From Parafrankia irregularis (GTDB taxonomy: Bacteria; Actinomycetota; Actinomycetes; Frankiales; Frankiaceae): 64,000 bases of DNA. Where the stretch lies: the NCBI RefSeq assembly GCF_001536285.1, contig NZ_FAOZ01000007.1, positions 137,360 through 201,359 of the forward strand, in the 5' to 3' direction. The translations under genes were made by a program, and so were the position numbers. Below, piece by piece: positions 32,432 to 63,463 of this stretch (its first letter is position 1; the number at the start of each line of letters is the position of its first letter). Under the pieces are notes generated by a model, which saw only the letters and a program-made list of their open reading frames with translations, was not told where the DNA came from and did no database searches.

Positions 32432-35032
32432 TCAGACGCCCGCGGGGCGGTCGGCGACAAGGCCGCTTTCCCGCAGCACGTTGATCTCGGAGGCGGACAG
32501 GCCGAGCAGGTCGCCGTAGACCTCGTCGTCGTGCTGCCCGAAGGTCGGCGCGGGACGGCGCAGCAGCGGCCCGGGATGGCTGGCGAGGCGGAAGGCGACG
32601 CCGGGCATGGGGTGCTCGCCGACGACCGGGTGACGCAGCCGTTCGAAGAAGCCGCGGTCCGCGTGCAGGGAGCTGTCGAGCAGGTCGGCCGGCGGGACGA
32701 CGGGGGCGGCCGGCACGCCCGCCGCGACCAGTTCGGCCGCCGCCGTGTCGCGGTCACGGGCAGCCGTCCAGGTCGTGATCGCCGCGTCGATCCGGTCGTG
32801 GGCGCTGGCCTGGCGACGTCCGTGGCTGGTAACCAGTTCCGGATCCCGGGCCAGGTCGGGACGCCCGATCAGCGTGCAGAGGCCGATCCAGGCCGGGTCG
32901 TCGAGGATGGCGAGCGCGACCCAGCCGTCGGGGCCGGCGCACCGGTAGACGCCCTGGGGTGCGGCGAGCGGGCCGCGGTTGCCGGCACGCATGAGTTCGG
33001 CGCCGTTCGCCGTGTACTCGATGGTGAGTTCCGCGGCGACGTTGAGGACCGCCTCAACCATGGTGGCCTCGACGAGCGTGCCTCCGGCACCACGACCGGT
33101 GCCGGTGCCGGAACTGGAGCCCGAGCCGGTGCCGGTGCCGGAGCGGTCCCGCGCGGCGAGTGCGACCAGCGTCGCGAAGGCCGCGTGCAGGCCGGCGATC
33201 GGGTCGCAGGCGCCGCGTGGGATCAGCGGCGGGCCGTCGGCGGTGCCGGTCAGCCAGGCCATCCCGCTTGCCTGTTCCATCGTCTGCGCGAAGCCGGTGC
33301 GGTCGCGCCACGGCCCGTCCAGGCCGAACGCGGGCATCCGGGTCAGGATCGCGGCCGGGTTCGCGGCGTGCACCACGTCCCAGTCCAGGCCCAGGTTCGA
33401 CAGGACCCGCGGCGAGAAGTTCTCGATGACGACGTCGCTGGCCGCGATCAGCCGGCGGGCCAGGTCGATGCCCTCGGGCCGGGTGAGTTCAAGGCTGATG
33501 CCACGCTTGTTGGGGTTGGTGGCCAGGAACATCACGCCCCATTCCCACCACCGCGGCTCCGAGGGCGGCTTGCCGCCGGAGAAGCGCATCCCGTCCGGGC
33601 GGGACACCCCCTCGACCTTGATCACATCGGCGCCGAGCGAGCCCAGCAGCAACGTCGCGGACGGCCCCGCCCAGAAGGCGGTCAGGTCCAGCACCCGCAG
33701 CCCGGACAGCGGCAGAGGACGTCCACCGCCCGGCACCGCGGCAGGGGTGGTTGTCGGGGCCGCGGCGACGGGCGGCCTGCGAGCCGGCCAGGCGACGGAG
33801 TCGGTGTGCTCGCCGAGGGTGGGGGCCGGCTCGGGCGGCCGGCCGCGGAAGTCGCCGATCCGGTAGGGCGTCCGCGGCTGCTGGAAGCCACCGCGCGGGT
33901 TCGGGCCGAACACGCCCCGCGCGGTGAACTGGTCGATCGTGGTGACCGTGCGCGGTGAGCCGATCGGGGCGACCGGGATGCGCAGCGCGGCGGCGCGCTC
34001 GATGATCTCCTCGGAGGTGTGCGTGGACGTCCAGGCGTGCACGGCGGCGAGGAACTCCTCGCGGCGTGCGTAGCGGCTGCCGAGGTTCGCCAGGTCGTCG
34101 TCGGCGAGCAGGTCGGGCCGGTCGATGAGCAGGAGGAAGTCCTGGAACTGTTGCGCGGTGATCGTGCAGAACCCGACGAGCCCGTCCTTCGTCGGCTCGA
34201 TCGACGGCAGTTCCGGGATGCGGCTGGCCGCGGCGGCGGCTCCCGCGGCCGCGGGCGGCCGGCCCATGACGGTGCGGCCGACGACGCTGAGCCCGCCGAG
34301 GATGACCGTCATGCAGTCCAGCATCGAGACGTCGACGAGGTCGCCGGCGCCGTCGCGGTGGGCGCCGTGCAGCGCGGCGAGCGCGGCGACCGCGGCATAG
34401 GTGCCGGATGCCCACTCGCCGATCCGCCCGCCGGCCTGCAGCGGCGGGCCTTCCGGGGAGCCGCGGCCGGCCGTCGATCCGCTCAGCGCCTGCAGCAGGA
34501 ACTCGGTCATCGGACGAGTCGCGTCGGCGCTGTTCGCGGTCAGCCCGAACGGCGTGATCGCGACGACCACCGCCTGCGAGTAGGCCGCGTGCAGCCGCCG
34601 GGCCAGCTCCGGAATTCCGGTGCCGGTGCCGGTGCCGGAGCCGGTGCCGGTGTCGAGGCCAGGCTCGGTGCCGGCAGGTGGTACGCCGTGGTGGAGGCCG
34701 TCGCCGAGGACGATGAGGTCCGCCTGCGCCGCCAGCTCGGTGATCCGTGGGCTCTCGGCGTCGGTGACGACGACTGAACGCTTCGAGGTGTTCAGGAAGC
34801 GGAACAGCGCGCTGTCGCCGCCGTCGGCCCCTTGGGTGCCCGACGCGGACCAGGCACGCAGCGGGTCCCCGGCGGGGCGCTCGATCTTGACGACGTCGGC
34901 GCCCGCGTCCGCGAACATCTTGCCGAGGTAGGGGCCGGCGATGCCGGTGGCGAGTTCCAGCACCCGGATACCGTGGAGCGGATGGCCCGCCCCGGGCGTT
35001 TCCTTCTGAGGATGGGACACGCGCGCGGTCAC
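32432..35032 (-). CDS. Double CaiB/BaiF (family III) CoA-transferase in one chain
   Basis: An 866-residue protein made of two family III CoA-transferase halves. The first half runs about 15-430 (LHGIRVLELATGIAGPYLGKMFADAGADVVKIERPAGDP) and the second about 445-860 (LSGLRVLDLTAFWAGPSATLLLGSLGADVIKVEG in pieces). Each half has the NTSKRS or NPNKRG segment and a VDVSMLDC- or VEATMVEA-type motif. The second half has the catalytic-Asp region altered to VEATMVEA; the first has VDVSMLD, so the halves may be active and inactive, as in other fused family III enzymes. The GTG start at 35032 overlaps the amidohydrolase stop as GTGA. Both halves carry Gly-Thr repeats. CoA donor and acceptor are unknown. 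Confidence 0.87.
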   Translation of the reverse strand: MTARVSHPQKETPGAGHPLHGIRVLELATGIAGPYLGKMFADAGADVVKIERPAGDPLRAWSASGTQGADGGDSALFRFLNTSKRSVVVTDAESPRITELAAQADLIVLGDGLHHGVPPAGTEPGLDTGTGSGTGTGTGIPELARRLHAAYSQAVVVAITPFGLTANSADATRPMTEFLLQALSGSTAGRGSPEGPPLQAGGRIGEWASGTYAAVAALAALHGAHRDGAGDLVDVSMLDCMTVILGGLSVVGRTVMGRPPAAAGAAAAASRIPELPSIEPTKDGLVGFCTITAQQFQDFLLLIDRPDLLADDDLANLGSRYARREEFLAAVHAWTSTHTSEEIIERAAALRIPVAPIGSPRTVTTIDQFTARGVFGPNPRGGFQQPRTPYRIGDFRGRPPEPAPTLGEHTDSVAWPARRPPVAAAPTTTPAAVPGGGRPLPLSGLRVLDLTAFWAGPSATLLLGSLGADVIKVEGVSRPDGMRFSGGKPPSEPRWWEWGVMFLATNPNKRGISLELTRPEGIDLARRLIAASDVVIENFSPRVLSNLGLDWDVVHAANPAAILTRMPAFGLDGPWRDRTGFAQTMEQASGMAWLTGTADGPPLIPRGACDPIAGLHAAFATLVALAARDRSGTGTGSGSSSGTGTGRGAGGTLVEATMVEAVLNVAAELTIEYTANGAELMRAGNRGPLAAPQGVYRCAGPDGWVALAILDDPAWIGLCTLIGRPDLARDPELVTSHGRRQASAHDRIDAAITTWTAARDRDTAAAELVAAGVPAAPVVPPADLLDSSLHADRGFFERLRHPVVGEHPMPGVAFRLASHPGPLLRRPAPTFGQHDDEVYGDLLGLSASEINVLRESGLVADRPAGV

Positions 35033-36312
35033 GCCTTTGCCCGGGGGGCGGTCATCCGCGCCCACGCGTCGCGGTCGCGCTGGTCGGCGAGTCGCCCGAC
35101 ATGGGTGACGACGTCGACGTCGGCGGCCTCGGCGCGCAGGGCGCCGGCGGTGCACCGCTCCCGCGGCCGGTGCCGGAACGGGTCGAACTGGTAGTGCCGC
35201 ATCGCGTTCTCATGCGTGATCTTGTTGATGGTGTCGTCGGGCAGTTCGCCGAGGTTCTCCAGGACGTCCTCGGGGCCGAACGGCCAGCTCGAGTCGGAGT
35301 GCGGGAAGTCGGACTCCCAGCACACGTTGTCGAGCGCGAACCAGTCGAGCAGCCGGGCGCCGACCCGGTCGCTGATGAAGCAGGTCAGAATGTGGCGGCG
35401 GAAGACGTCCGACGGGCCGTCCATGCCGGCCGGGAAGGTCGGCCGGGCCCACCCGGAATGCCGGCGGCGGACGTGCTCGGACCGCCACAGGAAGTACGGA
35501 ATCCAGCCGATGTCACCCTCGGTGAGGGAGAACCGCAGGTCGGGGAAGTCGGCCCAGAACTCCGCCCAGACCAGTTCCAGCAGGGAGTAGGCCGACATCA
35601 TCGACGAGGCGGCGATGTTCACGCTCGGCGGGGCGTCGGAGGAGAACAGCGGCGCCCGGGACGACGAGCCCACATGCAGGCACAGCACGGTGCCGACATC
35701 GCTGGCCGCACGGAACAACGGGTACCAGTAGTCGGTGTGGATGCTCGGCATCGACAGCGCCTCGGGGTTCTCCGAGAAGGTGACCGCGTGGCACCCCTTG
35801 GCCGCGAGGCGGTGGATCTCCTTCGCCGCCTCCTCGACGTCGTACAGCGGCAGAATCCCGCAGGGAATGAAACGCTCCGGGTACGCACCGCACCATTCGT
35901 CGACGTGCCAGTCGTTGTAGGCCTTGATCATGATCAGGTTGACGTCCCGGTCCGGCCCCTGGTTGAGCACCTGGCCGGAGAACCCCGTCCAGTTCGGGAA
36001 GTTGAGCCCGGCGAGCTGCCCACCGGCGCTCATGTCACGGACCCGTTCGTGCACGTCGTAGCAGCCGGGGCGCATCTCGTCGTACCGGCTCGCGTCGATG
36101 TTGAACATCTCCGGCGGCTTGCCGGCCACCGCGTTCAGCCCGAGGTTCCGGCCGCGGAGGCCGCCGTAGTACCACTGCTGCGCACCGCTTTCCTCCTCGA
36201 CGACGCGCGGCGTGAACTCCCGGTACTTCGCCGGGACGTGTGCGTCGAACATGGAGGCGGGCTCTGCGATGTGGTCGTCCACACTGATGAGAATCAGATC
36301 GTCGGCACGCAT
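35029..36312 (-). CDS. Amidohydrolase family protein (TIM-barrel, amidohydrolase 2)
   Basis: A 427-residue metal-dependent hydrolase-type TIM barrel: ISVDDHIAEPASMFDAHVP at the N-terminus (the D-x-H-like motif), ILPLYDVEEAAKEIHRLAAKGCHAV, LCLHVGSSSRAPLF, and near the C-terminus WESDFPHSDSSWPFG, the motif with the last metal-binding Asp. This subgroup is common in actinobacterial steroid- and aromatic-degradation clusters and includes decarboxylases and ring-opening hydrolases. AGGAG precedes the ATG at 36312. It overlaps the DUF35 gene by 19 bases and the CoA-transferase by GTGA. It is related in layout to the protein at 62285-63463. Confidence 0.86.
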   Translation of the reverse strand: MRADDLILISVDDHIAEPASMFDAHVPAKYREFTPRVVEEESGAQQWYYGGLRGRNLGLNAVAGKPPEMFNIDASRYDEMRPGCYDVHERVRDMSAGGQLAGLNFPNWTGFSGQVLNQGPDRDVNLIMIKAYNDWHVDEWCGAYPERFIPCGILPLYDVEEAAKEIHRLAAKGCHAVTFSENPEALSMPSIHTDYWYPLFRAASDVGTVLCLHVGSSSRAPLFSSDAPPSVNIAASSMMSAYSLLELVWAEFWADFPDLRFSLTEGDIGWIPYFLWRSEHVRRRHSGWARPTFPAGMDGPSDVFRRHILTCFISDRVGARLLDWFALDNVCWESDFPHSDSSWPFGPEDVLENLGELPDDTINKITHENAMRHYQFDPFRHRPRERCTAGALRAEAADVDVVTHVGRLADQRDRDAWARMTAPRAKA

Positions 36313-36896
36313 GGCGGCTCCTGTTCCGATGGTGGTAATGGTGCGGTGGAGGGGCTGAAATACGGCAGGCTCGTGCCCGGCTCGATCTCGTGGAAGACGG
36401 CCCGCAGCCGCATCCCGGCCTCGATCGCCGGGACGCCCAGGCCGACCAGGCAGGTCATCATCTGGTAGCCCTCGTCCACGGTGACGATCGCCGGGGCGTA
36501 GGGAGTGCGAAACGCCCGGCTCACCGGTCGGTGCACGACCGTCCAGCTGTAGAGGGTCGCGCCACCGGCCGAACGCTCCCAGCGCAGCGCCCGGGACAGG
36601 CAGGCCCGACAGGCCACCGCCGGCGGGAAGCCGGCGTACCCACAGTCGGCGCACCGCTGGAACAGCAGCTCGCCGCGGGCGCAGCCGGCCCAGAACGGCT
36701 CGGTCAGCGGCGTACGCGGGGCGAACGGGATGCCCGCCTTGGCGGGAAGCAGCTCGAAATCTCGATCACCGATGGGACTAATAGTCCCACTCCAGGCCCG
36801 GTGCGTTGCGGATACGTGCTCTCCATCGAGGGCCTGCCCATCCCGCGACGACGGGTCGGAACCCGGCTCCGCAGGGCCCGCCGACGACCCCTTCAT
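36294..36896 (-). CDS. DUF35 zinc-ribbon/OB-fold protein (ChsH2-C-like)
   Basis: A 200-residue protein with the rubredoxin-like zinc ribbon CADCGYAGFPPAVACRAC (Cys82, 85, 96, 99), preceded by PLTEPFWAGCARGELLFQR, and followed by an OB-fold acyl-CoA-associated domain (GGATLYSWTVVHRPVSRAF, YAPAIVTVDEGYQMMTCL). This is the DUF35 family; its members dock onto thiolase-like enzymes such as Ltp2 and may bind acyl-CoA. The start at 36896 gives a low-complexity first 50 residues with a palindrome inside (36774-36788), so translation may begin later, although no better start codon was found. First gene of the minus operon. Confidence 0.8.
   Translation of the reverse strand: MKGSSAGPAEPGSDPSSRDGQALDGEHVSATHRAWSGTISPIGDRDFELLPAKAGIPFAPRTPLTEPFWAGCARGELLFQRCADCGYAGFPPAVACRACLSRALRWERSAGGATLYSWTVVHRPVSRAFRTPYAPAIVTVDEGYQMMTCLVGLGVPAIEAGMRLRAVFHEIEPGTSLPYFSPSTAPLPPSEQEPPCVPTI
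36774..36788. promoter_or_regulatory. Palindrome GGGACTAATAGTCCC, operator candidate
   Basis: A perfect odd palindrome (GGGACTA-A-TAGTCCC). Its core ACTAATAGT occurs again at 37014-37022, about 240 bases away, on the far side of the DUF35 gene start. It may be the binding site of the PadR regulator in this operon or of a TetR-type regulator. Confidence 0.5.
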
Positions 36897-49365: not shown

Positions 49366-50556
49366 TCAGCCGAGGACGAAGTGGAGCTGCTCGTAGCCCC
49401 GGACGGTGCTGGTGTGTGAGCGCACCGACTTCTCGCGGTCGACGTTCCACTCCGGAAAGCGCTTGAGCGTCTCCTCCAGGCCGATCCGCCCTTCGAGACG
49501 GGCCAGCGAGGCGCCCAGGCAGTAGTGCGTCCCGAGGCCGAAGGAGACATGGCTGTCGAACTTGCGGTGGATGTCGAACTTGTCGGCGTCGGGGTACTTG
49601 CGCTCGTCGCGCCCGGCCGAGCCGGTGATCAGCAGGACCCTGGACTTCGCCGGCATCTGCACGCCGTGCAGCTCGACGTCCTCGGTGAGCATCCGGGCCT
49701 GGACGGGGGACGGCGACTCGTAGCGCAGCAGCTCCTCGATCGCGCCGCCGAGCAGCGACGAGTCGGCCGCGAGCTCGGCCCGCTGGTCCGGGTGCTCGGC
49801 CAGGACGGAGCCGGCCCAGCCGAGCAGCCGGGCGACGGTCTCGGTGCCCGCGCTGACGAGCAGGTTCGTGAAGTCGGCGCACTCCTGGTTGGTCAGCCGC
49901 CGGGTGCCGTTCTCGTTGACGATCTCCGCCTGGACCAGGCTGGTCATCATGTCGTCGCGCGGGTTCTTGCGGCGCTCGTCGAGCATGTTGGTCAGGTACT
50001 CGTGGATCTTGATCTGGGCGGCGAACGAGATGTCGTTGACCATGCCCTGACCTTCCTCCTGGTGGAAGGTCTGGTCGATCAGCTTGCGGATGTCCTCGCG
50101 GTCGGCGGGGTCGACACCGAGCAGCTCGGAGATGACCTTGGACGGCAGCTGGGCCGCGAAGTCCTGCACGTAGTCGAAGCCGTCGCCGCCGATCTGCGGG
50201 TCGAGCATCTCGGCGCACAGCTGCCGGATGGACGTCTCCAGAGCGGAGATCCGCCGCGGCGTGAAGGCCCGGGAGACCAGCGCGCGCAGCTCGGTGTGCT
50301 TCGGCGGGTCAATGAAGATCATGTGGCCGGTGCCCAGCGGCTCCGAGCCCATGATCTCCAGGACCGTGCCGTAGGCGGAGCTGTAGAGCAGCGGCTCCCG
50401 GCTGGCGGCCTCGACGTCGGCGTGCCGCGACAACGCGAAGAAATCCAGATCGTCGTTTCGGTAGACCGGTGCCTCATCGCGAAGGCGACGCCACACGTCG
50501 TAGGGCGCCAGATGAAGCACTTTGTCGTAGGGACTCCAGCTGATTTCCTCGCTCAT
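49366..50556 (-). CDS. Cytochrome P450
   Basis: A 396-residue soluble bacterial P450. The haem-binding loop is FGLGTHYCLG (339-348) with the thiolate Cys346, the I-helix oxygen-activation motif is SAGTETVARLLG, and the ExxR motif lies in IEELLRYESP. The final Thr of the usual AGxDTT is Val here (AGTETV). It starts at the ATG at 50556 with only a weak ribosome site. Sequence style (TGHMIFIDPPKHTELRALVSRAFTPRRI) is that of the actinobacterial CYP families acting on steroids, terpenes or fatty acids. It is separated by 157 bases from the DUF35-thiolase gene read in the same direction. No ferredoxin gene is adjacent. Confidence 0.92.
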   Translation of the reverse strand: MSEEISWSPYDKVLHLAPYDVWRRLRDEAPVYRNDDLDFFALSRHADVEAASREPLLYSSAYGTVLEIMGSEPLGTGHMIFIDPPKHTELRALVSRAFTPRRISALETSIRQLCAEMLDPQIGGDGFDYVQDFAAQLPSKVISELLGVDPADREDIRKLIDQTFHQEEGQGMVNDISFAAQIKIHEYLTNMLDERRKNPRDDMMTSLVQAEIVNENGTRRLTNQECADFTNLLVSAGTETVARLLGWAGSVLAEHPDQRAELAADSSLLGGAIEELLRYESPSPVQARMLTEDVELHGVQMPAKSRVLLITGSAGRDERKYPDADKFDIHRKFDSHVSFGLGTHYCLGASLARLEGRIGLEETLKRFPEWNVDREKSVRSHTSTVRGYEQLHFVLG

Positions 50557-50712
50557 GACACCACTATGACACAGAATGGGCGGCGCTGATTGGGTGGGCC
50601 GACGGGGTGATCCGGCTGCGGCAAGGCGCGACAAGATGCGGCAACGAGCCGGCAATCCTCACGCATTCCATGCCGCCGGCCGGCATTCGAAGCACCACTC
50701 TCGGGCTGGTTT

Positions 50713-52344
50713 TCAGGAACCGTCACGCTGCAGCAGCAACACACCGGACGGTGTGCCGCCACCGGAGGTGACCACCGCCGTCCGGGCATTCGCCACCTGG
50801 CGCTCACCGGCTTCATGGCGCAGCTGGGTGACCGCCTCGTAGAAGAAGCCGTAGCCGTGGGTGCGGCCCTCGGAAAGCTGGCCGCCGTGCGGGTTGAGCG
50901 GGAGCTCGCCGTCGATCGCGATCCGCCGGCCCTTGTCGAGCCAGTCCTGCGCCTCACCGAAGCCGCAGAAGCCGAGGCCCTCGATCCAGGAGATCGCGTT
51001 GAAGGTGAAGCCGTCGTAGACCAGCGCCAGGTCGACGTCCGACGGGCGCAGGTCGGTCCTCGTCCACAGGTGGGCGGCCTGGCCGAGCACCTGCGGCTCG
51101 TGGGTGATGACACCCTGCTCCCAGGAGACCCGCTCGAGGATCTGCGTGCCGACGGCCTCGACCCGGATCGCCGGCTTCGGCAGGTCCCCGGCGACGGAGG
51201 CGTCGGAGACGACGACGGCGATGGACGCGTCGCATGGCACGTCACAGTCGTAGAGGCCGAACGGGGTCGTGACCATCCGCGCCGACATGTAGTCGTCGAG
51301 GGTCAGCGGGTCGCGGTAGATCGCGTTCGGGTTGAGCGCCGCGCCGGCCCGGCCGTTGAGGGCGATCGCGGCGAGCATCTCCCGGTCGGCGCCGTAGCGG
51401 TGGAAGTACTGGTTGGCGTTCATGGCGATCCAGTTCGCCGCGGACATCGCCCCGAACGGGGCGCGCCACAGGGTGGTCGCGTTCGAGTGCCGGCCGCCCC
51501 CGCCGCCCATGCCCAGGCCCAGGGTCCGGTAGGTCGACTCCCACACCGTCCGGAAGCACAGCACATGCCGGCACAGGCCCGAGGCGACCGCCAGCATCGC
51601 GGCGATGACGGAACCTCCCGGGCCGGGCAGGTCGCCGCCGCCGTTCGTCCAGGTCGGGTGCAGCCGCAGCGCCTCCTCGACGGCGGTCACCCCGCCTTCG
51701 CTCATGCCCATGCCGGTCGCGCCGGGGTAGGTGGAAAGGCCGTCGATGTCGTCGAGGGTCAGGCCCGCGTCGGCGACCGCCTTCAGGCAGGCGTCGATCG
51801 TCAGCTCGAGCGGGTCGACCATCAGCCGGCGCCCGATCCGCGACCGGCCGATGCCGGAGAGCACCGCGCGGTGCTCGAAGCGGTGGTCGCTCAGCGGCGC
51901 GCGGGGGGCGGGCAGGTCGGGCTCGCCGACCCGGTCGGTCGGGTCCGTGCCGCCGGTCGGCTCGAACATCGCCAGCCAGACGTCCTCGTGCTGCTCGAAG
52001 CGGACGGCGACCTCCTGCCCGATGTGCACGTCCGCCGGCTCGCACCCGGTGATGTTCGTGGTCAGCCGGACGCTCGCGTCCTCCACCAGCGCCACGTTCG
52101 CGACCACGTAGGGCGGCATGATCGCGGGCGTCCACGGCTGCACGTTCACGGTGAACCCGACGACCGTCGCCCGCCCGGAGACCTCGGTGGGGGTGTGGGC
52201 GCGGCTGCGGCACCGTGGGCAGATGGGGACGGGGGGGTGCACGAGCTGGCCGCAGTCGTCGCAGCCCTGGATACGTAGCTTCCCGTCGGCCCCCGACTTC
52301 CAGAACCACTCGGTGGCGGGGGTGATCTCGGGAAGCGGGCGCAT
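50713..52344 (-). CDS. DUF35 zinc-ribbon fused to thiolase-like (Ltp2-type) protein
   Basis: A 543-residue fusion. Residues 10-130 are a DUF35 domain with zinc ribbon CDDCGQLVHPPVPICPRC (Cys28, 31, 42, 45) and OB-fold. Residues about 155-540 are a thiolase-fold domain of the Ltp2/SCP-x type (VLSGIGRSRIGRRLMVDPLELTIDACLKAV, DVDLALVYDGFTFNAISWIEGLGFC, PLNPHGGQLSEGRTHGYGF). In mycobacterial cholesterol degradation the DUF35 domain of ChsH2 docks on the separate aldolase Ltp2; here both partners are in one chain. AGGAG precedes the ATG at 52344. Expected activity: retro-aldol cleavage of a beta-hydroxyacyl-CoA, inferred from family. Confidence 0.87.
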   Translation of the reverse strand: MRPLPEITPATEWFWKSGADGKLRIQGCDDCGQLVHPPVPICPRCRSRAHTPTEVSGRATVVGFTVNVQPWTPAIMPPYVVANVALVEDASVRLTTNITGCEPADVHIGQEVAVRFEQHEDVWLAMFEPTGGTDPTDRVGEPDLPAPRAPLSDHRFEHRAVLSGIGRSRIGRRLMVDPLELTIDACLKAVADAGLTLDDIDGLSTYPGATGMGMSEGGVTAVEEALRLHPTWTNGGGDLPGPGGSVIAAMLAVASGLCRHVLCFRTVWESTYRTLGLGMGGGGGRHSNATTLWRAPFGAMSAANWIAMNANQYFHRYGADREMLAAIALNGRAGAALNPNAIYRDPLTLDDYMSARMVTTPFGLYDCDVPCDASIAVVVSDASVAGDLPKPAIRVEAVGTQILERVSWEQGVITHEPQVLGQAAHLWTRTDLRPSDVDLALVYDGFTFNAISWIEGLGFCGFGEAQDWLDKGRRIAIDGELPLNPHGGQLSEGRTHGYGFFYEAVTQLRHEAGERQVANARTAVVTSGGGTPSGVLLLQRDGS

Positions 52345-52471: not shown

Positions 52472-53275
52472 TCAGCCGGGCGGCTGTGCCGGAAACGTCC
52501 GGGTGGTGGCGTACACGGACAGCCTGTCGCCGTCGCCGGCGTCGCGCACCTCCACCCGTCCCAGGCCTGCCTGCGCGGTGGCGGTGGCCACGGCGGGCCC
52601 GATGCGGACCGGCCGCAGATAGCGCAGCGCCAGCAGGGAGAGTGTGGCACCGGGGGAGAGGGAGAGCGCGGCCTCCTCGACGGCCAGCGCGATGAGCCCG
52701 CCGTTGACCGTCTGGGCCGCGTTGAGCGCGTCCTCGGAGCGGGGCAGCCGCGCGACCCCGGGACGGGGGACCTCGCACCGGGCCCGGCGGGCGAAGGGAA
52801 CGCTCAGCCGCTGGTGGGGCAGGGCCACCGGCAGGTCCATCGCGTCGGTGAGCTCCGGCGGCATGAGCACGGACGGGTCCGGCGCCGCCATGAACGACGC
52901 CACGCCGACGGCGAGGCTGCGCCCGTCCGACCCGGTCAGGTCGACGTCGATGACCGCCACCGAGCGGCCCTTCTTCACCAGCCGGCCGACCGCGCTGATC
53001 CGTTCGAGCTCCCGCAGTGGCTCGTGGACGTGGATGTCGAGATCGAGCGTGACCGGCACCCGCGGCGCCAGGAACTCCAGCACCAGGTAACCCGCGACGA
53101 CATCGGTCCAGGTCGCCAGAATCGACGCCCGGACACTGGACGTTCCGGGCACGAACATTTCCGGGACGACCGCCGCGGACCCGTGAATCTCGTCTCCGAC
53201 CCGGCTTGTTTCGAATCCCAGCTCGCGCAGAATGTGGCCGTCCTGGCGCCGGCCGTCACTGCTTGTCGTCGTCAT
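52472..53275 (-). CDS. Double-hotdog protein (acyl-CoA thioesterase or hydratase-like)
   Basis: A 267-residue protein from the ATG at 53275; a GTG at 53371 would add 32 residues but overlaps the inverted repeat. It has two hotdog halves: residues about 5-130 (HILRELGFETSRVGDEIHGSAAVVPEMFVPG, ATWTDVVAGYLVLEF, RISAVGRLVKKGRSVAVIDVDL) and about 160-265 (RSEDALNAAQTVNGGLIALAVEEAAL, LALRYLRPVRIGPAVATATAQ). This resembles PaaI-type thioesterases rather than MaoC hydratases, since no clear hydratase motif is visible. It lies in the P450 cluster, 127 low-complexity bases before the DUF35-thiolase gene. Confidence 0.78.
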   Translation of the reverse strand: MTTTSSDGRRQDGHILRELGFETSRVGDEIHGSAAVVPEMFVPGTSSVRASILATWTDVVAGYLVLEFLAPRVPVTLDLDIHVHEPLRELERISAVGRLVKKGRSVAVIDVDLTGSDGRSLAVGVASFMAAPDPSVLMPPELTDAMDLPVALPHQRLSVPFARRARCEVPRPGVARLPRSEDALNAAQTVNGGLIALAVEEAALSLSPGATLSLLALRYLRPVRIGPAVATATAQAGLGRVEVRDAGDGDRLSVYATTRTFPAQPPG

Positions 53276-53314
53276 CCGATCCGTTTCGAGGAGGACATGT
53301 TTCGAGGAGAGCAC

Positions 53315-53404
53315 GTACTGAGGCAGACGTTGGGCCTTTTCCATCGCACGGTCCACGGTCAGGTATGTCACGAGTCCGTGTCGACGATGGAAAAGGCTCA
53401 GTAC
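53315..53404. repeat. Inverted repeat of about 90 bases between SDR and hotdog genes
   Basis: GCCTTTTCCATCG (53334-53346) is the exact reverse complement of 53385-53397, and GTACTGAG (53315-53322) is the reverse complement of 53397-53404, with an asymmetrical bulge of 11 bases on the left side. The loop is 38 bases. It fills most of the gap between the SDR stop (53426) and the hotdog start (53275), so it is placed to act as terminator, attenuator or operator. Confidence 0.75.
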
Positions 53405-53425: not shown

Positions 53426-54253
53426 CTAGAAGCGGCCGGAGAGGAACTTCACGATCGGCGTCGCGGCCGGGTAGACCTCGGTGAGACCGGCGGAGAAGTA
53501 GCCGGCGTCGGTCACCAGCGTGATGCCGTTGATCGCGGAGGCACCGGAGCTGACCAGGAACAGCAGCGGGTAGGCCTGCTCCAGCGAGGTCGCGGCCTCG
53601 ATGCCGACCTCGGCCCGGTAGTCGGCGCCGAAGCCCAGCCACATCTCCTTGTTCTCCTGGGCCAGCGGGGTGTCGGTCGGGCCCGGGCAGATCGCGTTGA
53701 TGCGGATGCCCTTCTTGAGCAGGGGCATCGCCTGGGTGGCGACGTACGCGCAGACCGCCTGCTTGGTGTTCATGTAGTCGGCCTTGTTGTTCTCGACGGC
53801 CCACTTGGTGGCCTCGTCGAAGTCGGTGATGGCGATGAACTCCTTCAGCGACTCGAGGTTGGCCTCCCAGCCCAGGCCCGCGGCCGAGGAGATGAAGCCG
53901 ATCGCGGAGCCGGCGCCCAGCTGCCCGGAGGCGATCACCTTGTCGATCAGGTAGCGGTGACCGATGAAGTTGATCCGCTCGATGCCCGGGGTGCCGTCGG
54001 CGACACCGGCGGCCGAGACCAGCGCGTGGATCGGGCCGTCGATCTGCGCCAGGGCGGCGTCGATGGAGGCGGCCTCGGCGAGGTTGACCTGGATGGCCTG
54101 CACGCCCTCCAGCTTCACGGGGGCGTAGTCGAGGACCACGACCTCCGCGCCGGCGGACAGCGCCAGCTCGGCGGTGGCGGCGCCCATGCCCGTCGCGCCA
54201 CCGACGACCACGACCCGCTTGCCGTCGAACCGGAAGGCGTCAAACAACGTCAT
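53426..54253 (-). CDS. SDR family oxidoreductase with coenzyme-binding VGGATGMG motif
   Basis: A 275-residue classical-type SDR. The nucleotide motif VVVVGGATGMGAATAELAL is at about 14-32, the active-site region is FISSAAGLGWEANLESLKEF with Ser, and the Y-x3-K motif is DYMNTKQAVCAY. Unlike most SDRs it has a long insertion between Ser and Tyr (about 35 residues), as seen in 3-alpha-hydroxysteroid dehydrogenases of actinobacteria. The ATG at 54253 is used. The CoA-transferase gene is 33 bases upstream on the same strand. A hydroxysteroid-type or hydroxyacyl substrate would fit, but is inferred. Confidence 0.85.
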   Translation of the reverse strand: MTLFDAFRFDGKRVVVVGGATGMGAATAELALSAGAEVVVLDYAPVKLEGVQAIQVNLAEAASIDAALAQIDGPIHALVSAAGVADGTPGIERINFIGHRYLIDKVIASGQLGAGSAIGFISSAAGLGWEANLESLKEFIAITDFDEATKWAVENNKADYMNTKQAVCAYVATQAMPLLKKGIRINAICPGPTDTPLAQENKEMWLGFGADYRAEVGIEAATSLEQAYPLLFLVSSGASAINGITLVTDAGYFSAGLTEVYPAATPIVKFLSGRF

Positions 54254-54286: not shown

Positions 54287-55504
54287 CTACGCGACGACGC
54301 CGCGGATCTTGAGGTCCAGCACCGCTTCGGTGTCCAGGCCCAGTTCGGCGAGGATCTCGTCGCCGTGCTCGTTGAACAGCGGCGCCCGCTTCGGCGCGGC
54401 CGGCTTGTCGTCGTACTGCACCGGCACGGTCGTGAGCTGGAAGGGGACCCCGGCCGCGGTCGTGCATTCCTGGACGTAGCCGTTGGCGACCGTCTGGACG
54501 TCCACGGCGGCCTCGAGGGTGTCCTGGACGATGGTCCACTGGCCGACGAAGTTCTCCAGCCGCACCCGCCACTCGGCCAGCGGCCGTGCCGCGAACGTCT
54601 CGGTCAGGATCGCGATCGCCTCGGCGCTGTTCGTCATCAGGCTCGCGTGGTCGGCGAAACGGGGATCGGTGGCGAGCTCCGGGCGCTCGATGACGTCGCA
54701 CATGGGCGCCCAGTACCGGCCGGCCTGCAGGCAGGTCAGGGCGACCCAGCGCCCGTCCGAGGTGCGGTAGTTGCCGGTGAGCGGGTTCATCCGCTGCTGG
54801 TCGGCCGGCGGCGGGGTCCACGGGACGCCGAGCAGCAGCGACAGCGCCATGGCCTGCCCCATCGACCACATCGCCGTGCCGAGCAGGGAGACGTCCACGG
54901 TCGAGGCCTCACCGGTGCGCTCCCGGTGGAACAGCGCGCCCATGATGCCGCCGGCGATCGTCATCGCGCCGATGGAGTCACCGAAGCCGGGTGCCGGCGG
55001 GACGGGCACGTGGCCGTACTCGGGCTGCATGATGCCGGTCGCGACGCCGGAGCGGGCCCAGAACGCCAGCGAGTCGTACGAGCCGCGGTCGGCCTCCGGG
55101 CCGTGCTCGCCCTGGCCGGTGCCCCGCACGTAGATGATCTTCGGGTTGTGGACGCGGATCTCGTCCACGTCGATGTGCAGCTTGGTGCGCACGCTCGGCA
55201 GCTTGTTGGTGAGGAAGACGTCCGCCGTCGCGGCGATGCGGTACAGGATGTCGCGGCCCGCCTCGGAGGTGAGGTCGAGGCCGAGGCTGCGCTTGCCGCG
55301 GTTGGAGTGCTCGAGCAGGACGTGGACGTCCTTGGGGACGACCGCGATGCCCGAGGAGGCCAGGGCCCGCATGGCGTCGCCGCGCTCGACGTGCTCGATC
55401 TTGATGACGTCGGCACCGAGGTCGGCGAGCAGGGCCGAGGCCGCGGGAACGAATGTGTGCTCGGCGACCTCGAGAATCCGGACGCCCTGCATCACCGAGG
55501 TCAC
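54287..55504 (-). CDS. CaiB/BaiF (family III) CoA-transferase
   Basis: A 405-residue family III CoA-transferase: QGVRILEVAEHTFVPAASALLADLGADVIKIEH in pieces at the start, then HSNRGKRSLGLDL, YGHVPVPPAPGFGDSIGAM and the catalytic-Asp motif STVDVSLLGTAMW, with Asp near residue 195. The GTG at 55504 has AGGAGG six bases upstream; an ATG four codons later is also possible. It is very similar in layout to the CoA-transferase at 58379, so the two may be paralogs for different acids of the same pathway. It forms an operon with the SDR at 53426. Confidence 0.9.
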   Translation of the reverse strand: MTSVMQGVRILEVAEHTFVPAASALLADLGADVIKIEHVERGDAMRALASSGIAVVPKDVHVLLEHSNRGKRSLGLDLTSEAGRDILYRIAATADVFLTNKLPSVRTKLHIDVDEIRVHNPKIIYVRGTGQGEHGPEADRGSYDSLAFWARSGVATGIMQPEYGHVPVPPAPGFGDSIGAMTIAGGIMGALFHRERTGEASTVDVSLLGTAMWSMGQAMALSLLLGVPWTPPPADQQRMNPLTGNYRTSDGRWVALTCLQAGRYWAPMCDVIERPELATDPRFADHASLMTNSAEAIAILTETFAARPLAEWRVRLENFVGQWTIVQDTLEAAVDVQTVANGYVQECTTAAGVPFQLTTVPVQYDDKPAAPKRAPLFNEHGDEILAELGLDTEAVLDLKIRGVVA

Positions 55505-55833
55505 GACCGTCCTCCTGCGTATGGGAAGGCCGGGGGTCCGGCCACCTGGGAAAAATTTAACATCGACGTCGATACCAGCGTCGCGTGTCGCAGTCCAGCG
55601 TCTCCGGTGGCTGCGGGCGTGGCGGCGGGCAGACTCGGTTCTTGATCGTGAAAAGGAGCATCCGGCCAGGTCCGCCGACCGGGGATCGGTACCGGGAGGC
55701 CGGCCGGCAGCATCGGCGCAGCGCCGGCTGACGCCCTGGCCCCGGTGCCGCTCACCCGAATCGAACCTGACCGCCACATCTGTGATGACACTCTCATGTC
55801 ACAGCCGCAGAGGCCAGCCACGCCCGGGGGAGG
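55505..55833. other. Intergenic region upstream of the CoA-transferase
   Basis: No gene is supported. The stretch holds the ATCGACGTCGAT palindrome at 55562-55573, next to an AAATTTAA patch around 55553-55560 that would suit a promoter region for the minus-strand CoA-transferase starting at 55504. Confidence 0.5.
55562..55573. promoter_or_regulatory. Perfect palindrome ATCGACGTCGAT, operator candidate
   Basis: A 12-bp perfect palindrome sits next to an AT-rich patch, 58 bases before the CoA-transferase start. TetR-type operators in actinobacterial lipid-catabolism clusters often look like this, but no regulator gene is adjacent. Confidence 0.45.
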
Positions 55834-56598
55834 TCAGCGGGGCGCCATCCGCAGCCCTCCGTCGAGCCGGATCACCTCACCGTTGAGGTAGCCGTTCTCC
55901 AGCAGGTCGGCGGCGAGGCGGCCGAAGTCGGCCGGCGTGCCCAGGCGCTTCGGGTGCGGAACGCCGGCGGCCAGACCGTCGCGGATGTCGTCGCGCAGCC
56001 GGCCGAGCATCGGGGTCTCGAACACGCCCGGCGCGATCGTGTTCACCCGGATCGCCCAGCTGGCGAGATCCCGGGCGGCGACGATGGTCAGGCCGCGCAC
56101 CCCGGCCTTCGCGCTCGCGTAGGCGGTCTGGCCGATCTGGCCCTCGAAGGCGGCGACCGACGCGGTCAGCACGATCGCGCCGCGGTCGCCGTCGAGGAGC
56201 TCGGCGTTGCGGGCCATCCGCGCCGCGGCCAGACGCACCACGTTGTACGTGCCCACCAGGTTGATCCTGATGATCTCGGCGTAGCTGTCGAGCGCGCCGG
56301 GGTTGCCCGCCCGGTCCAGCACCCGCAGCCGGTCACCACCGCGCCCGGCGCAGTGCACAACCCCGCGCAGCGGGCCGTCGGCCGCGGCGGCGTCGAGCGC
56401 CGCGTCGAACTGGTCGGGGTCGGTGATGTCCGCGGCCACGAAGCGCGCGCCGAGCTCGGCGGCGACGTCCAGGCCGGGCGAGGTCGCCAGGTCGACGATC
56501 GTGACGGCCGCGCCACGGTCCAGCAGCACCCGCGCGGTGCCGAGGCCCAGGCCGGACGCCCCGCCGGTGACCAGGGCCGACGTTCCGTTGAGCAGCAT
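55834..56598 (-). CDS. SDR family oxidoreductase (3-hydroxyacyl-CoA dehydrogenase type II-like)
   Basis: A 254-residue classical SDR. Motifs: [18 protein letters not shown] (about 8-25) with Asp in TIVDLAT (NAD preference), [10 protein letters not shown], catalytic Ser in [22 protein letters not shown] (Y-x3-K). The pattern of [12 protein letters not shown] and the end of the protein ([21 protein letters not shown]) match the type II 3-hydroxyacyl-CoA dehydrogenase group (HSD17B10-like). GGAGG is five bases before the ATG at 56598. Role in beta-oxidation of the cluster substrate is likely. Confidence 0.88.
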
Positions 56599-56887
56599 GC
56601 GTTCCTCCAGGAGGGAGCCTGTCGTGCGGGAGGGGAGCCTGTCGTAAGAATGGCGCCCATCAAGATCGGTAGTCGGCGGACAAGGATCGGTAGCCGGCGG
56701 GGATCCCGCACCGCCGCATGGCGGCACCAAATCCCCTCAAGAGGGGTAAAAGGGGCGGCTGAGCACCCGGCAACCCGCAAGAAGGAAGGATTCTGGTCGT
56801 AGGAACGACGAAAACGCTTCACGCTTGCGACTCGCCCAACCGGCTGCCGGGCCACCGGGCTGCCGAGTCACCGCGGAAGGCTCAATA

Positions 56888-58378: not shown

Positions 58379-59584
58379 ATGAAGCCGCTCGACGGAGTCA
58401 GGGTTCTCGAAGTGGCGATGTACGGCTTCGTGCCGTCCGCGGGCGGTGTGCTCGCGGACTGGGGCGCCGAGGTCATCAAGATCGAGCACGCGGTGACCGG
58501 CGACCCGCAGCGGGGCCTGAAGCAGACCGGCAACCTGAAGGTCGGCGACGGGCCGAACCCGAACATCTGGCACGCCAACCGCGGCAAGCGCAGCCTCGGC
58601 CTCGACATGTCCCGGCCCGAGGGCAAGGAGATCCTCGACGAACTGGTCCGCCGCGCGGACGTCTTCCTCACCAGCTTCCTGCCCCGCTCGCGCCAGAAGC
58701 TCGGCATCGACGTCGAGGACATCCGGAAGCTGAACCCGCAGGTCATCTACGCCCGGGGCAGCGCCCTGGGGCCGCGCGGCCCGGAGTCGGACAAGGGCGG
58801 CTTCGACATGACGGCCTTCTGGTCGCGGGCCTCGTCGGCGGCCAGCATCACCCCGAGCGGCCACGAGGGCATCACCCCGCCGCCCGGGCCCGCCTACGGC
58901 GACACGATCTCGGGCACGAACCTCGCCGGGGGCATCGCCGCGGCGCTGTTCCGGCGCGAGCGCACCGGCGAGCCGTCGGTCGTGGACGTCTCCCTGCTGG
59001 GCAGTGGGCTGTGGGCGATGGGCCAGACGATCTCCCTGTCCATGCTGCTGGACGAGCCGCTGCAGGCCCCGGCGGCAGGCGCGCACGGCTCGCCGAGCAA
59101 CCCGCTCTCCGGGCTCTACCGCACCTCGGACGGCCGCTTCCTCTCGCTGGTCATGCTCCAGCCGGGCCGGTACTGGCCGGACGTCGTCCGCCACATCGAC
59201 CGCCCGGAGCTCGCCGACGACCCGCGGTTCTCCTCCGCCGAGCAGATCGCCGCGCACACGGCGGAGGCGGTCGAGATCCTGCGGGAGGCGTTCGCCGCGC
59301 GCACGCTCGCGGAGTGGACGGAGCGCCTGGGCACGCTGTCCGGCCCGTGGGCGCCGGTGCAGGACTCGCTCCAGGTCAGCGGCGACCCGCAGATCCGGGC
59401 CAACGAGTACCTGCTGTCCGCCGGCGACCTGGAGCTGGTCTCCAGCCCGGTCCAGTTCGACGTGCAGGCGCCCGAGCTGGGCCCGGCGCCGGACTTCGCC
59501 GCGCAGACCGAGGAGATCCTCCTGGAGCTGGGGCTGGACTGGGAGCGGATCATCGAGCTGAAGACCGCCGGCGCGGTCACCTGA
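58379..59584 (+). CDS. CaiB/BaiF (family III) CoA-transferase
   Basis: A 401-residue family III CoA-transferase: DGVRVLEVAMYGFVPSAGGVLADWGAEVIKIEH in pieces at the N-terminus, then HANRGKRSLGLDMSRPEG, and PSVVDVSLLGSGLWAMGQ with the catalytic Asp at about 203. Almost every block has its counterpart in the 54287-55504 protein (for example NPLSGLYRTSDGRF against NPLTGNYRTSDGRW), marking them as paralogs. Plus-strand single gene, with GAAGGG before the ATG. Transfers CoA to a carboxylic acid intermediate; identity unknown. Confidence 0.9.
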   Translation: MKPLDGVRVLEVAMYGFVPSAGGVLADWGAEVIKIEHAVTGDPQRGLKQTGNLKVGDGPNPNIWHANRGKRSLGLDMSRPEGKEILDELVRRADVFLTSFLPRSRQKLGIDVEDIRKLNPQVIYARGSALGPRGPESDKGGFDMTAFWSRASSAASITPSGHEGITPPPGPAYGDTISGTNLAGGIAAALFRRERTGEPSVVDVSLLGSGLWAMGQTISLSMLLDEPLQAPAAGAHGSPSNPLSGLYRTSDGRFLSLVMLQPGRYWPDVVRHIDRPELADDPRFSSAEQIAAHTAEAVEILREAFAARTLAEWTERLGTLSGPWAPVQDSLQVSGDPQIRANEYLLSAGDLELVSSPVQFDVQAPELGPAPDFAAQTEEILLELGLDWERIIELKTAGAVT

Positions 59585-60515: not shown

Positions 60516-60674
60516 TAAATGTGGAGAGTAACATTCCCGCCTAAAATCCAGAGTTCCCCTGTGAGATTGCCGGCCTTCCGCCGCACACGGATGCCGGCGG
60601 CCCGCGGGGTACCTGTGGAACCTGCCCGAGTGTCCTGGGAGAGTCCGGGAATCGCACAGATCGGAGCTCACGCG

Positions 60675-62255
60675 ATGCGCACGGTCCCCCCCGAGCTGGT
60701 CAGGCGGTACGAGTCCGAGGGCTGGTGGACGTCCGAGACGCTGGGCGACATCCTGGCCACGGGCCTGGCGGCCGCGCCGGACGCGCAGTTCCGGGTCCAC
60801 TCGGCGGTGCGGCCGTGGAACGGCACGTTCCGCGAGGTCGAGCAGGTCGCGCGCCGGCTGGCGGCCGGGCTGCGCGCCCGCGGGGTCGGCCCCGGCGACG
60901 TCGTGGTGTTCCAGCTGCCGAACTGGATGGAGGCGGCGGCGACCTTCTGGGCCTCGGCGTTACTCGGCGCGGTCGTGGTGCCGGTGGTGCACTTCTACGG
61001 CCGTAAGGAGGTCGGCTACATCCTGGAACGGACGTCGCCGAAGGTCTTCGTCACCGCGCAGGGCTTCGGGCGGCTGGAGTTCCAGCCCGACCTCGTCGCC
61101 GGAGTGCCCGTCGTCGGCGTGGTGGGGCGCGGGAGCGGCGAGCCGCTGGCGTTCGACGACCTGCTCGCCGACGACCCGATGCCCGGCACCGTCGCGGCGG
61201 ACCCGGGCGCCCCGGCGGTGATCGCGTTCACCTCCGGCACCACCCGCGACCCCAAGGGCGTCATCCACAGCCATCGGACGCTCGGCTTCGAGACCCGCCA
61301 GCTCGCCGGCCTCTACCCCCCGGACCGCGGCCGCCAGCTCACCGCCGCGCCGATCGGGCACTTCATCGGCATGCTGAACGCCTTCCTCATCCCGGTGCTG
61401 GAAGGACGTCCGATCAACCTGGCCGACGTCTGGGACCCGGCGCAGGCGCTGGAGCTGATGCGCACCGGCGGCCTCACCGTCGGCGGCGGCGCCACGTACT
61501 TCATGACCAGTCTGCTGGACCACCCCGACTTCACCCCCGAGCACCTGGTCGGGATGCGCTACGCCGGGCTCGGCGGGTCGTCGGTGCCGGCGGCGGTCAC
61601 CACCCGGCTGGACGACCTGGGCATCACGGTGTTCCGCTCCTACGGCAGCACCGAGCATCCCTCGATCACCGGCTCCCGGTACACCGCGGGACCGGACAAG
61701 CGCCTGTTCACCGACGGGGATGTCCTACCCGGGGTGGAGATCCGGCTCGAACCGGACGGGGAGATCCTCAGCCGGGGCCCGGACCTGTGCCTGGGCTACC
61801 TCGACGACGAGCTGACCGCGCAGGTCTTCGACGCCGACGGCTGGTACCGCACCGGCGACGTAGGGGTGCTCGACGCCGACGGCTACCTGACGATCGTCGA
61901 CCGCAAGGCCGACTTCATCATCCGCGGCGGGGAGAACATCAGCGCGCTGGAGGTCGAGGAGGTGCTGCTGACCATGCCCGGTGTCGCCGAGGCCGCGGTG
62001 GTCGCGGCGCCCGACGCCCGGCTCGGTGAGCACGCCGCCGCGGTGCTGCGCCTGCAGGACGGGGCCGCGCTGCCGACCCTGGACGCGGTGCGCGCGCACT
62101 TCCAGCAGGCGGGGCTGGCCCGGCAGAAGTGGCCCGAGGAGCTGGTCGAGATCGAGGACTTCCCGCGCACCCCCAGCGGTAAGATCCAAAAGGCCGTGCT
62201 GCGGGCAGTCATCGCACGTCGGGAAGACATTGCGGCACAGCGGGGAAGAGAATAG
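60675..62255 (+). CDS. Acyl-CoA synthetase (ANL superfamily AMP-dependent ligase)
   Basis: A 526-residue fatty-acid-type CoA ligase. The P-loop is AFTSGTTRDPKGVIHSH (about 183-199), the A5 motif FRSYGSTEHPS, A7 WYRTGDVGVLD, A8 IVDRKADFIIRGGENIS and the catalytic-Lys motif SGKIQKAVLR near 505. In the A3 motif the usual TSGTTGxPKG is TSGTTRDPKG. I use the ATG at 60675 with GGAG upstream because conserved sequence begins there; open frame continues to 60519 but is low complexity. Activates a carboxylic acid of the cluster pathway with CoA. Confidence 0.9.
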   Translation: MRTVPPELVRRYESEGWWTSETLGDILATGLAAAPDAQFRVHSAVRPWNGTFREVEQVARRLAAGLRARGVGPGDVVVFQLPNWMEAAATFWASALLGAVVVPVVHFYGRKEVGYILERTSPKVFVTAQGFGRLEFQPDLVAGVPVVGVVGRGSGEPLAFDDLLADDPMPGTVAADPGAPAVIAFTSGTTRDPKGVIHSHRTLGFETRQLAGLYPPDRGRQLTAAPIGHFIGMLNAFLIPVLEGRPINLADVWDPAQALELMRTGGLTVGGGATYFMTSLLDHPDFTPEHLVGMRYAGLGGSSVPAAVTTRLDDLGITVFRSYGSTEHPSITGSRYTAGPDKRLFTDGDVLPGVEIRLEPDGEILSRGPDLCLGYLDDELTAQVFDADGWYRTGDVGVLDADGYLTIVDRKADFIIRGGENISALEVEEVLLTMPGVAEAAVVAAPDARLGEHAAAVLRLQDGAALPTLDAVRAHFQQAGLARQKWPEELVEIEDFPRTPSGKIQKAVLRAVIARREDIAAQRGRE

Positions 62256-62284: not shown

Positions 62285-63463
62285 ATGCCTACGCGAGTGT
62301 CGCCGTACCCCGTCTTCGACGCGGACAACCACCTGTACGAGACCGAGGACGCCTTCACCAAGTTCCTGCCGGAGGCATACAGGGGCGCGATCCGGTACGT
62401 CCAGGTGGACGGCCGCACGAAGATCGCGATCCGGGGCCAGATCAGCGACTACATCCCCAACCCGACCTTCGAGGTCGTCGCCCGGCCGGGCGCCCAGGAG
62501 GAGTTCTTCAAGATCGGGAACCCCGAGGGCAAGTCCTACCGTGAGATCATCGGCAAGCCGATACGGTCGATCCCGGCCTTCCGCGAGCCGAAGTCCCGCA
62601 TCGAGCTGATGAACGAGCAGGGCCTCGAGCGGACGCTGATGTTCCCGACGCTGGCGAGCCTCATCGAGGAGCGCATGCGGGACGACCCGGAACTGACGCA
62701 TGTCGTCATCCACGCCCTCAACGAGTGGCTGTACGAGACCTGGCAGTTCAACTACGAGAACCGCATCTTCACCACGCCGGTCATCACCCTGCCGATCGTC
62801 GAGAAGGCGATCGAGGAGCTGGAGTGGGTCGTGGCGCGCGGGGCGAAGGCCGTCCTGATCCGGCCGGCGCCGGTGCCCGGTTTCAACGGCTCACGGTCCT
62901 TCGGCCTGCCGGAGTTCGACCCGTTCTGGGAGCGGGTCGTGCACCACAACATCCTGGTCGGCCTGCACTCCTCGGACAGCGGCTACAACCGCTACACCCA
63001 GGACTGGGAGGGCAAGGTCCGCGAGTACCTGCCGTTCCAGCCGGACGCCTTCCGCATGTTCGGCCAGTGGCGCCCCATCCAGGACACGGTGGCCGCGCTG
63101 GTCTGCCACGGTGCGCTGTCCAGGTTCCCGACGCTGAAGATCGCGGTCATCGAGAACGGCGCGTCCTGGGTCGCCCCACTGCTCTCCGAGCTGAAGGACA
63201 TCTACAAGAAGTACCCGCAGCAGTTCCTGGAGAACCCGATCGAGGTGGTCCGGCGCAACGTCCACGTCAGCCCCTTCTGGGAGGAGGACATGGGCAAGCT
63301 CTCCGAGCTGATCGGGGTCGAGCGGGTGCTCTTCGGCTCCGACTACCCGCACCCCGAGGGCCTCGGCGACCCGGTGAGCTATGTCGAGGTGCTCAAGGAC
63401 CTCAGCGCGGAGGACCAGGCCAAGATCATGGGCGGCAACCTGGCCAGGCTGATCGACGCATGA
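62285..63463 (+). CDS. Amidohydrolase family protein (TIM-barrel)
   Basis: A 392-residue amidohydrolase-2 type TIM barrel: YPVFDADNHLYETEDAFTKFLPE at the N-terminus, with the D-x-x-x-H-like metal motif as DADNH; then GARAV-like strand ARGAKAVLIRPAPVPG, HHNILVGLHSSDSGYNRY, and near the C-terminus FGSDYPHPEG with the conserved Asp. GGGAGG precedes the ATG. The gene is 29 bases after the acyl-CoA synthetase and overlaps the next ligase by ATGA, so the three form an operon. Related to the protein at 35029-36312. Exact reaction unknown; ring-cleavage or decarboxylation steps have been shown for relatives. Confidence 0.87.
   Translation: MPTRVSPYPVFDADNHLYETEDAFTKFLPEAYRGAIRYVQVDGRTKIAIRGQISDYIPNPTFEVVARPGAQEEFFKIGNPEGKSYREIIGKPIRSIPAFREPKSRIELMNEQGLERTLMFPTLASLIEERMRDDPELTHVVIHALNEWLYETWQFNYENRIFTTPVITLPIVEKAIEELEWVVARGAKAVLIRPAPVPGFNGSRSFGLPEFDPFWERVVHHNILVGLHSSDSGYNRYTQDWEGKVREYLPFQPDAFRMFGQWRPIQDTVAALVCHGALSRFPTLKIAVIENGASWVAPLLSELKDIYKKYPQQFLENPIEVVRRNVHVSPFWEEDMGKLSELIGVERVLFGSDYPHPEGLGDPVSYVEVLKDLSAEDQAKIMGGNLARLIDA

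Follow-up and report, generated by a model that had tools for sequence, protein, structure and literature searches.

A single-chain DUF35/thiolase-like protein of Parafrankia irregularis as a candidate acyl-CoA carbon–carbon lyase distinct from Ltp2

A reverse-strand gene of Parafrankia irregularis joins a DUF35 domain to a thiolase-like domain in one 543-residue chain. It lies in a 64,000-nucleotide stretch of contig NZ_FAOZ01000007.1 (the window), and on balance we regard its product as a probable single-chain, DUF35-dependent acyl-CoA C–C lyase of retro-aldol type, which belongs to a YDGF/Arg subfamily and serves a catabolic cluster in a step other than the C3 step of steroid degradation. 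This is the best explanation for the fusion, its fold relationship, residue pattern, distribution, and phylogeny, from which we infer a reaction, residue roles, a docking of the domains, and a type of substrate. The reaction is assigned by analogy to characterized aldolases, to which the protein has about 29 to 33% identity. The gene and its parts are as follows.

50713..52344, reverse strand: fusion gene, DUF35 (zinc ribbon and OB fold) followed by the thiolase-like domain, 543 aa
52195..52302, reverse strand: zinc ribbon, residues 15-50, with Cys28/31/42/45 (C4); Pfam zf-ChsH2, 6.9e-11
51994..52185, reverse strand: OB fold, residues 54-117; Pfam OB_ChsH2_C, 1.2e-13
51883..51945, reverse strand: inter-domain linker, residues ~134-154, from the model's secondary structure and the variability of the alignment there
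50716..51882, reverse strand: thiolase-like domain, residues ~155-543, from the VIA match of 155-543 to 6ok1_A and Thiolase_C_1
51007..51018, reverse strand: YDGF motif, Tyr443-Phe446 (Y294DHF in Ltp2), from residue alignment
50857..50865, reverse strand: Arg494 (at the position of Ltp2 Tyr344) to His496, from residue alignment

The open reading frame starts with ATG and has a GC3 of 0.96. Both halves of DUF35 (PF12172/PF01796) exceed their curated cut-offs, with 42.2 versus 23.2 bits for the zinc ribbon and 51.2 versus 27.1 for the OB fold, as does Thiolase_C_1 at residues 428-532 (1.9e-31). The single frame, the Pfam domains, and their retention across genomes bear out the claim of a preliminary description that a DUF35 domain and a thiolase-like enzyme are fused in one protein. 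For comparison we used named genomes holding the best 80 of at least 563 relatives, found with peptide patterns that contain YDGF; YDGF counts in these 80 loci are consequently not independent, and the other alignment columns are free of that bias. All 80 have both domains in one open frame, and all 80 keep the four cysteine zinc ligands (CxxC-x10-CxxC). Among solved chains, the top phmmer match is TcLtp2 of Thermomonospora curvata (6ok1_A, residues 160-541, 2.6e-56), and the DUF35 part matches its partner, the ChsH2 DUF35 (6ok1_B, residues 14-130, 8.4e-15), and the Shy DUF35 (9myr_B, 2.4e-11). An AlphaFold2 model of the two-domain chain, built with 56 natural rows, has a mean pLDDT of 82.7 and a pTM of 0.86. 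The fold likeness to the Ltp2 of the Ltp2-ChsH2(DUF35) complex that had been proposed from the sequence holds in the model, whose closest solved chain is again 6ok1_A (VIA Z 43.8, 2.2 Å over 368 residues, a match of the thiolase part only); 4u4e (Z 40.9) and 9myr_A (Z 40.6) follow, and Foldseek agrees in placing 6ok1_A first. A pTM of this size, over a chain of which the larger domain makes up about 72%, suggests that the placement of the two domains relative to each other is defined in the model.

Of 58 related genomes, 24 carry the fusion at full length and in a single frame, among them all six of the same genus; of 296 genomes in a phylum sample, 9 do. The host's own genome is counted in each. 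Carriers among the matches listed are Parafrankia (99% identity), Frankia, Pseudofrankia, Mycobacterium and relatives, Nocardia, Rhodococcus, Streptomyces, and Acidimicrobiia, and the annotation of plasmid-borne copies reads "OB-fold domain-containing protein." Rv1867 of Mycobacterium tuberculosis may be another such fusion. Databases and the literature already show the DUF35-thiolase fusion as an architecture. DUF35 homologues fused to thiolase-superfamily members were stated in 2010 alongside SSO2064, in a passage that describes the same architecture and gives no sequence, active site, or pathway (excerpt of PMC2954200).

The origin of the fusion can be approached through its split relatives. 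The closest paralogues in the host genome are separate DUF35 and thiolase genes, with about 47 to 51% identity over the thiolase part. In four split pairs (L002, L003, L046, and L048) the DUF35 stop and the thiolase start overlap by 4 bp, and a fifth (L004) lacks such a clear thiolase start. Because the nearest paralogues are split and mostly overlapping gene pairs, the link between the two domains, a functional one in the preliminary description, is well supported; together with the fusion itself, these pairs speak for a link that is physical as well as functional. In a 60-row maximum-likelihood tree, some long branches of which are unsure, 39 fusions fall on one side of a branch with support of 100/99, and this clade joins six split pairs with support of 96/99. 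TcLtp2, the host's own Ltp2, and a protein of plasmid pIBU218 form a separate Ltp2 clade. One locus (L044), whose halves lie in different frames beside an ambiguous base, was left out of the tree, as were five near-copies. Most simply, the fusion would have arisen once, from split pairs.

The active site sets the protein apart from the aldolases that have been characterized. TcLtp2 uses Tyr294 of its YDHF motif as base and Tyr344 as acid, with His296 assisting the oxyanion hole, and the bile acid C5 aldolase Sal works through Tyr302 and Cys304 of its YDCY motif, with Gly in place of Cys at the nucleophile position, so that thiolysis is not possible (excerpt of PMC12329534). In all 24 fusions identified independently of the motif, Tyr294 of Ltp2 corresponds to Tyr443, His296 is replaced by Gly445, and Tyr344 is replaced by Arg494. 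Tyr443 is invariant across these 24 fusions, eight split relatives, Ltp2 types, Sal, and IpfD. Arg494 is likewise invariant in 24/24 fusions, 8/8 split relatives, and three further relatives (L008-L010), at a position that holds Tyr in Ltp2 types and IpfD and Gln in Sal. The Cys304 of Sal is also absent, its place being taken by Gly445, and thus the acid residues of both characterized aldolases are missing from the fusion. The thiolase His is kept as His496. A thiolase nucleophile is lacking from the fusions, since none of the 80 named ones (the best of at least 563 relatives) has a Cys at residues 230-250. The invariant Tyr/Arg pattern marks a large, uncharacterized aldolase-like subfamily in actinobacteria, mycobacteria included; our literature search found no YDGF/Arg member with a tested activity.

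We place the protein with the DUF35/thiolase-like acyl-CoA C–C lyases, of which Ltp2-ChsH2(DUF35) and Sal-Shy(DUF35) are members, and propose that the C4 zinc ribbon and OB fold of DUF35 pack on the thiolase-fold domain of the same chain or of a dimer partner, so that DUF35 would wall the acyl-CoA cleft. Tyr443 would act as the base that removes the proton from the β-hydroxyl group, and Arg494 and His496, replacing Tyr344 of Ltp2, may stabilize and protonate the acyl-CoA enolate. Such a retro-aldol cleavage would release a ketone or an aldehyde and leave a shortened acyl-CoA.

Three two-protein systems invite comparison. The Ltp2-ChsH2(DUF35) complex (PDB 6OK1) has the same two domains, a C4 zinc ribbon, the closest fold, and Tyr294 at the position of Tyr443; it differs in having two chains, YDHF rather than YDGF, and the acid Tyr344 rather than Arg494, at 33% identity. 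Sal-Shy(DUF35) of Comamonas (PDB 9MYR) resembles the fusion in its thiolase fold with DUF35, its conserved Tyr, and a nucleophile position that is not Cys (excerpt of PMC12329534), but it needs Cys304 in YDCY, where the fusion has Gly, and uses a C3H1 zinc finger, where the fusion has C4. In ibuprofen degradation, IpfD/IpfE (pIBU218) is, as proposed for the fusion, a DUF35/thiolase-like retro-aldolase outside steroids (excerpt of PMC9195938); it is encoded by two genes, has 29% identity, and carries Tyr at the position of Ltp2 Tyr344, for which reason IpfD was rejected as an active-site model. Besides ipfDE, pIBU218 holds a second DUF35/lipid-transfer pair (L147:1539-3103) with YDHF, Tyr344, and 59% identity to TcLtp2, adjoining a hydratase and a CoA-transferase.

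Could the protein nevertheless be a genuine steroid C3 side-chain aldolase of the Ltp2 kind, onto which the ChsH2 DUF35 has been moved? Both sequence and fold place the 6ok1 chains nearest to it among solved structures, and its best NCBIfam match, PRK07855, is also matched by the true Ltp2. That match scores 253 bits against a cut-off of 469, however, and the replacement of Tyr344 by Arg and of His296 by Gly in all 24 fusions, the separate clade, and the lack, among the neighbors scanned, of either a MaoC hydratase or an acyl-CoA dehydrogenase all speak against it. Moreover, the same genome has a true Ltp2 elsewhere (L148:10374-11555, outside the window), with 638.9 bits to PRK07855, YDHF, and Tyr344. 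It stands directly downstream of a 721-aa protein (L148:8212-10377) that combines a dehydratase-type hotdog, DUF35, and MaoC in one chain, is apparently ChsH2 and ChsH1 fused, and overlaps the true Ltp2 gene by 4 bp. (A NACHT/STAND-type NTPase is encoded at L148:13647-15995, between Ltp2 and another thiolase-like gene.) We consider an Ltp2 identity very unlikely and have rejected the membership that the label "Ltp2-like aldolase" implied, on residues, score, and tree. The fusion may act in the manner of these aldolases, yet it is not an Ltp2.

The fold and the retained His496 would also suit an ordinary thiolase or an acyltransferase of Claisen type, and DUF35 serves thiolases such as benzoylsuccinyl-CoA thiolase and the archaeal acetoacetyl-CoA thiolase (excerpt of PMC12329534), but the lack of a nucleophilic Cys, seen in all 80 named fusions, makes this reading quite improbable. 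A different acyl-CoA C–C reaction in place of retro-aldol cleavage of a β-hydroxyacyl-CoA, such as decarboxylation or Claisen-type ring cleavage with Arg494 binding a carboxylate or carbonyl, would suit an Arg that is invariant where known aldolases carry Tyr or Gln, and the relative TbSLP slowly decarboxylates malonyl-CoA (excerpt of PMC12329534). Every member keeps the conserved Tyr of the characterized aldolases, however, and we judge this alternative unlikely. A neutral joining of adjacent genes, with no mechanistic meaning, seems barely credible as an account of the fusion: the split relatives, in overlapping frames, are indeed one indel short of a fusion, but the single frame has been kept across Frankiaceae, Mycobacteriaceae, Nocardiaceae, Streptomyces, and Acidimicrobiia, together with all four zinc cysteines in the 80 named fusions. 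The reading that we prefer remains a retro-aldol lyase of the YDGF/Arg type.

The genes around the fusion are consistent in kind with a catabolic cluster, and its main members are listed here.

49366..50655, reverse strand: cytochrome P450, the next downstream gene (Pfam p450)
52472..53371, reverse strand: double-hotdog (4HBT) protein, the upstream neighbor (Pfam)
53426..54253, reverse strand: short-chain dehydrogenase
54287..55777, reverse strand: CoA-transferase family III (start possibly further in)
55834..56730, reverse strand: short-chain dehydrogenase
58379..59584, forward strand: CoA-transferase family III
60519..62255, forward strand: AMP-binding CoA ligase
62285..63463, forward strand: PF04909 amidohydrolase, PtmU3-related, all six dinuclear-metal ligand positions kept

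A DapB-like oxidoreductase and an enoyl-CoA hydratase are also present. Together, the P450, CoA transferases, CoA ligase, dehydrogenases, and PF04909 protein may degrade a hydrophobic substrate. Comparison of 16 regions shows that the gene block is kept within the genus and only loosely elsewhere; the hotdog neighbor occurs in all five regions from the genus and is missing from the other 11. An assignment of this neighbor as a MaoC hydratase was not supported, as its match is to 4HBT and it has no PDB match at 0.01. By profile, across the window and the best 80 of at least 563 relatives, a P450 occurs in 61 of 81 loci and a PF04909 protein in 48. The preliminary description also named a second, separate DUF35 and thiolase pair at 36294 and 30317. 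Both genes exist, but they stand 5 kb apart, the thiolase (30317-31480, with YDPF and without the Tyr344 of Ltp2) and the DUF35 (36294-36896) flanking a two-domain CoA-transferase and a PF04909 protein; the pair is another subfamily and not a second Ltp2. The transferase beside it (32432-35155) is 907 residues long, and its family III CoA-transferase domains lie in tandem. The idea of two parallel aldolase systems falls short of the number actually present, as the host genome has 18 DUF35 zinc-ribbon genes.

The PF04909 proteins raise the question of how a β-hydroxyacyl-CoA might be supplied. Hydroxylation by PtmU3 may precede a retro-aldol ring opening. A tentative and rather doubtful proposal is that a PtmU3-like dinuclear-metal monooxygenase of PF04909 hydroxylates β to the CoA thioester and that the fusion or its split relatives then cut the product by retro-aldol cleavage; such a module, if true, would replace the dehydrogenase and hydratase steps of steroid side-chain degradation. 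Dinuclear monooxygenases within PF04909 include PtmU3, AibH2, and SfbO (excerpt of PMC10811679), and PtmU3 is a β-hydroxylase of diterpenoid biosynthesis that accepts CoA-ligated substrates (excerpt of PMC7782822). PtmA3/PtmU4 was dropped as a platensimycin retro-aldolase pair, these being, according to excerpted text, an acyl-CoA synthetase and a CoA-transferase. The PF04909 protein at 62285-63463 matches PtmU3 at 1.8e-21 and DitZ at 5.4e-14, with the putative metal-dependent hydrolase 4dzi far closer (1.6e-84); like the window's other PF04909 protein, at 35029-36654, it keeps all six PtmU3/AibH2-type metal ligands. Of the 80 named loci (the best of at least 563), 45 have at least one PF04909 protein that keeps all six positions. 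In mycobacterial loci (e.g., L122:2155-4435) a tandem PF04909 pair lies beside the fusion, with a Rieske protein, a NuoF-like flavoprotein, and a ferredoxin, a set resembling the aib operon of AibH1, AibH2, Rieske ferredoxin, and reductase (excerpt of PMC7782822). One family of the pair (cluster 8) has changed acidic ligands in 29/29 cases and the other keeps all six in 28/29; by analogy with the AibH1/AibH2 pairing, the altered family might be a non-catalytic partner.

Neighborhood counts bear on the proposed module from both sides. The 54 loci longer than 17 kb (952 kb, from the window and the best 80 of at least 563) hold 78 PF04909 ORFs, counted with a profile built from members of the same loci, against the 6 to 7 expected from the highest densities among the genomes searched (61 per 9.5 Mb; 26 per 3.7 Mb). 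Within 5 kb of the host's 18 DUF35 genes, a PF04909 gene is found for 9 (1.1 expected), a family III CoA-transferase for 12 (0.9), an enoyl-CoA hydratase for 5 (1.3), a P450 for 3 (1.1), and an acyl-CoA dehydrogenase for 1 (1.8), expectations that assume uniform gene placement while related loci are not independent. The scarcity of acyl-CoA dehydrogenases there fits a hydroxylation route to the β-hydroxyacyl-CoA. Against the module, the fusion's nearest PF04909 gene is 10.4 kb away, which leaves the fusion outside the 9 of 18; CoA-transferases are more strongly associated with DUF35, and PF04909 genes are likewise close to CoA-transferases (19 of 49); acyl-CoA dehydrogenases (cluster 2) often accompany the fusion in other genera (45 of 81 loci, the best 80 of at least 563 and the window); and in the cluster 8 family that adjoins the fusion the ligand set is incomplete. 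Literature naming both "amidohydrolase" and "DUF35" looks unrelated to such a module. We regard the link between the fusion and PF04909 monooxygenase-type proteins as an interesting, unproven hypothesis.

Reports disagree on the need for DUF35, which does not appear important for activity in one (excerpt of PMC11321319) and is indispensable in vivo in another (excerpt of PMC12502768). One chain that replaces a two-protein aldolase would be a simple construct with which to probe the role of this domain. If the PF04909 link holds, it would also give a clue to the reactions that many orphan catabolic clusters carry out.
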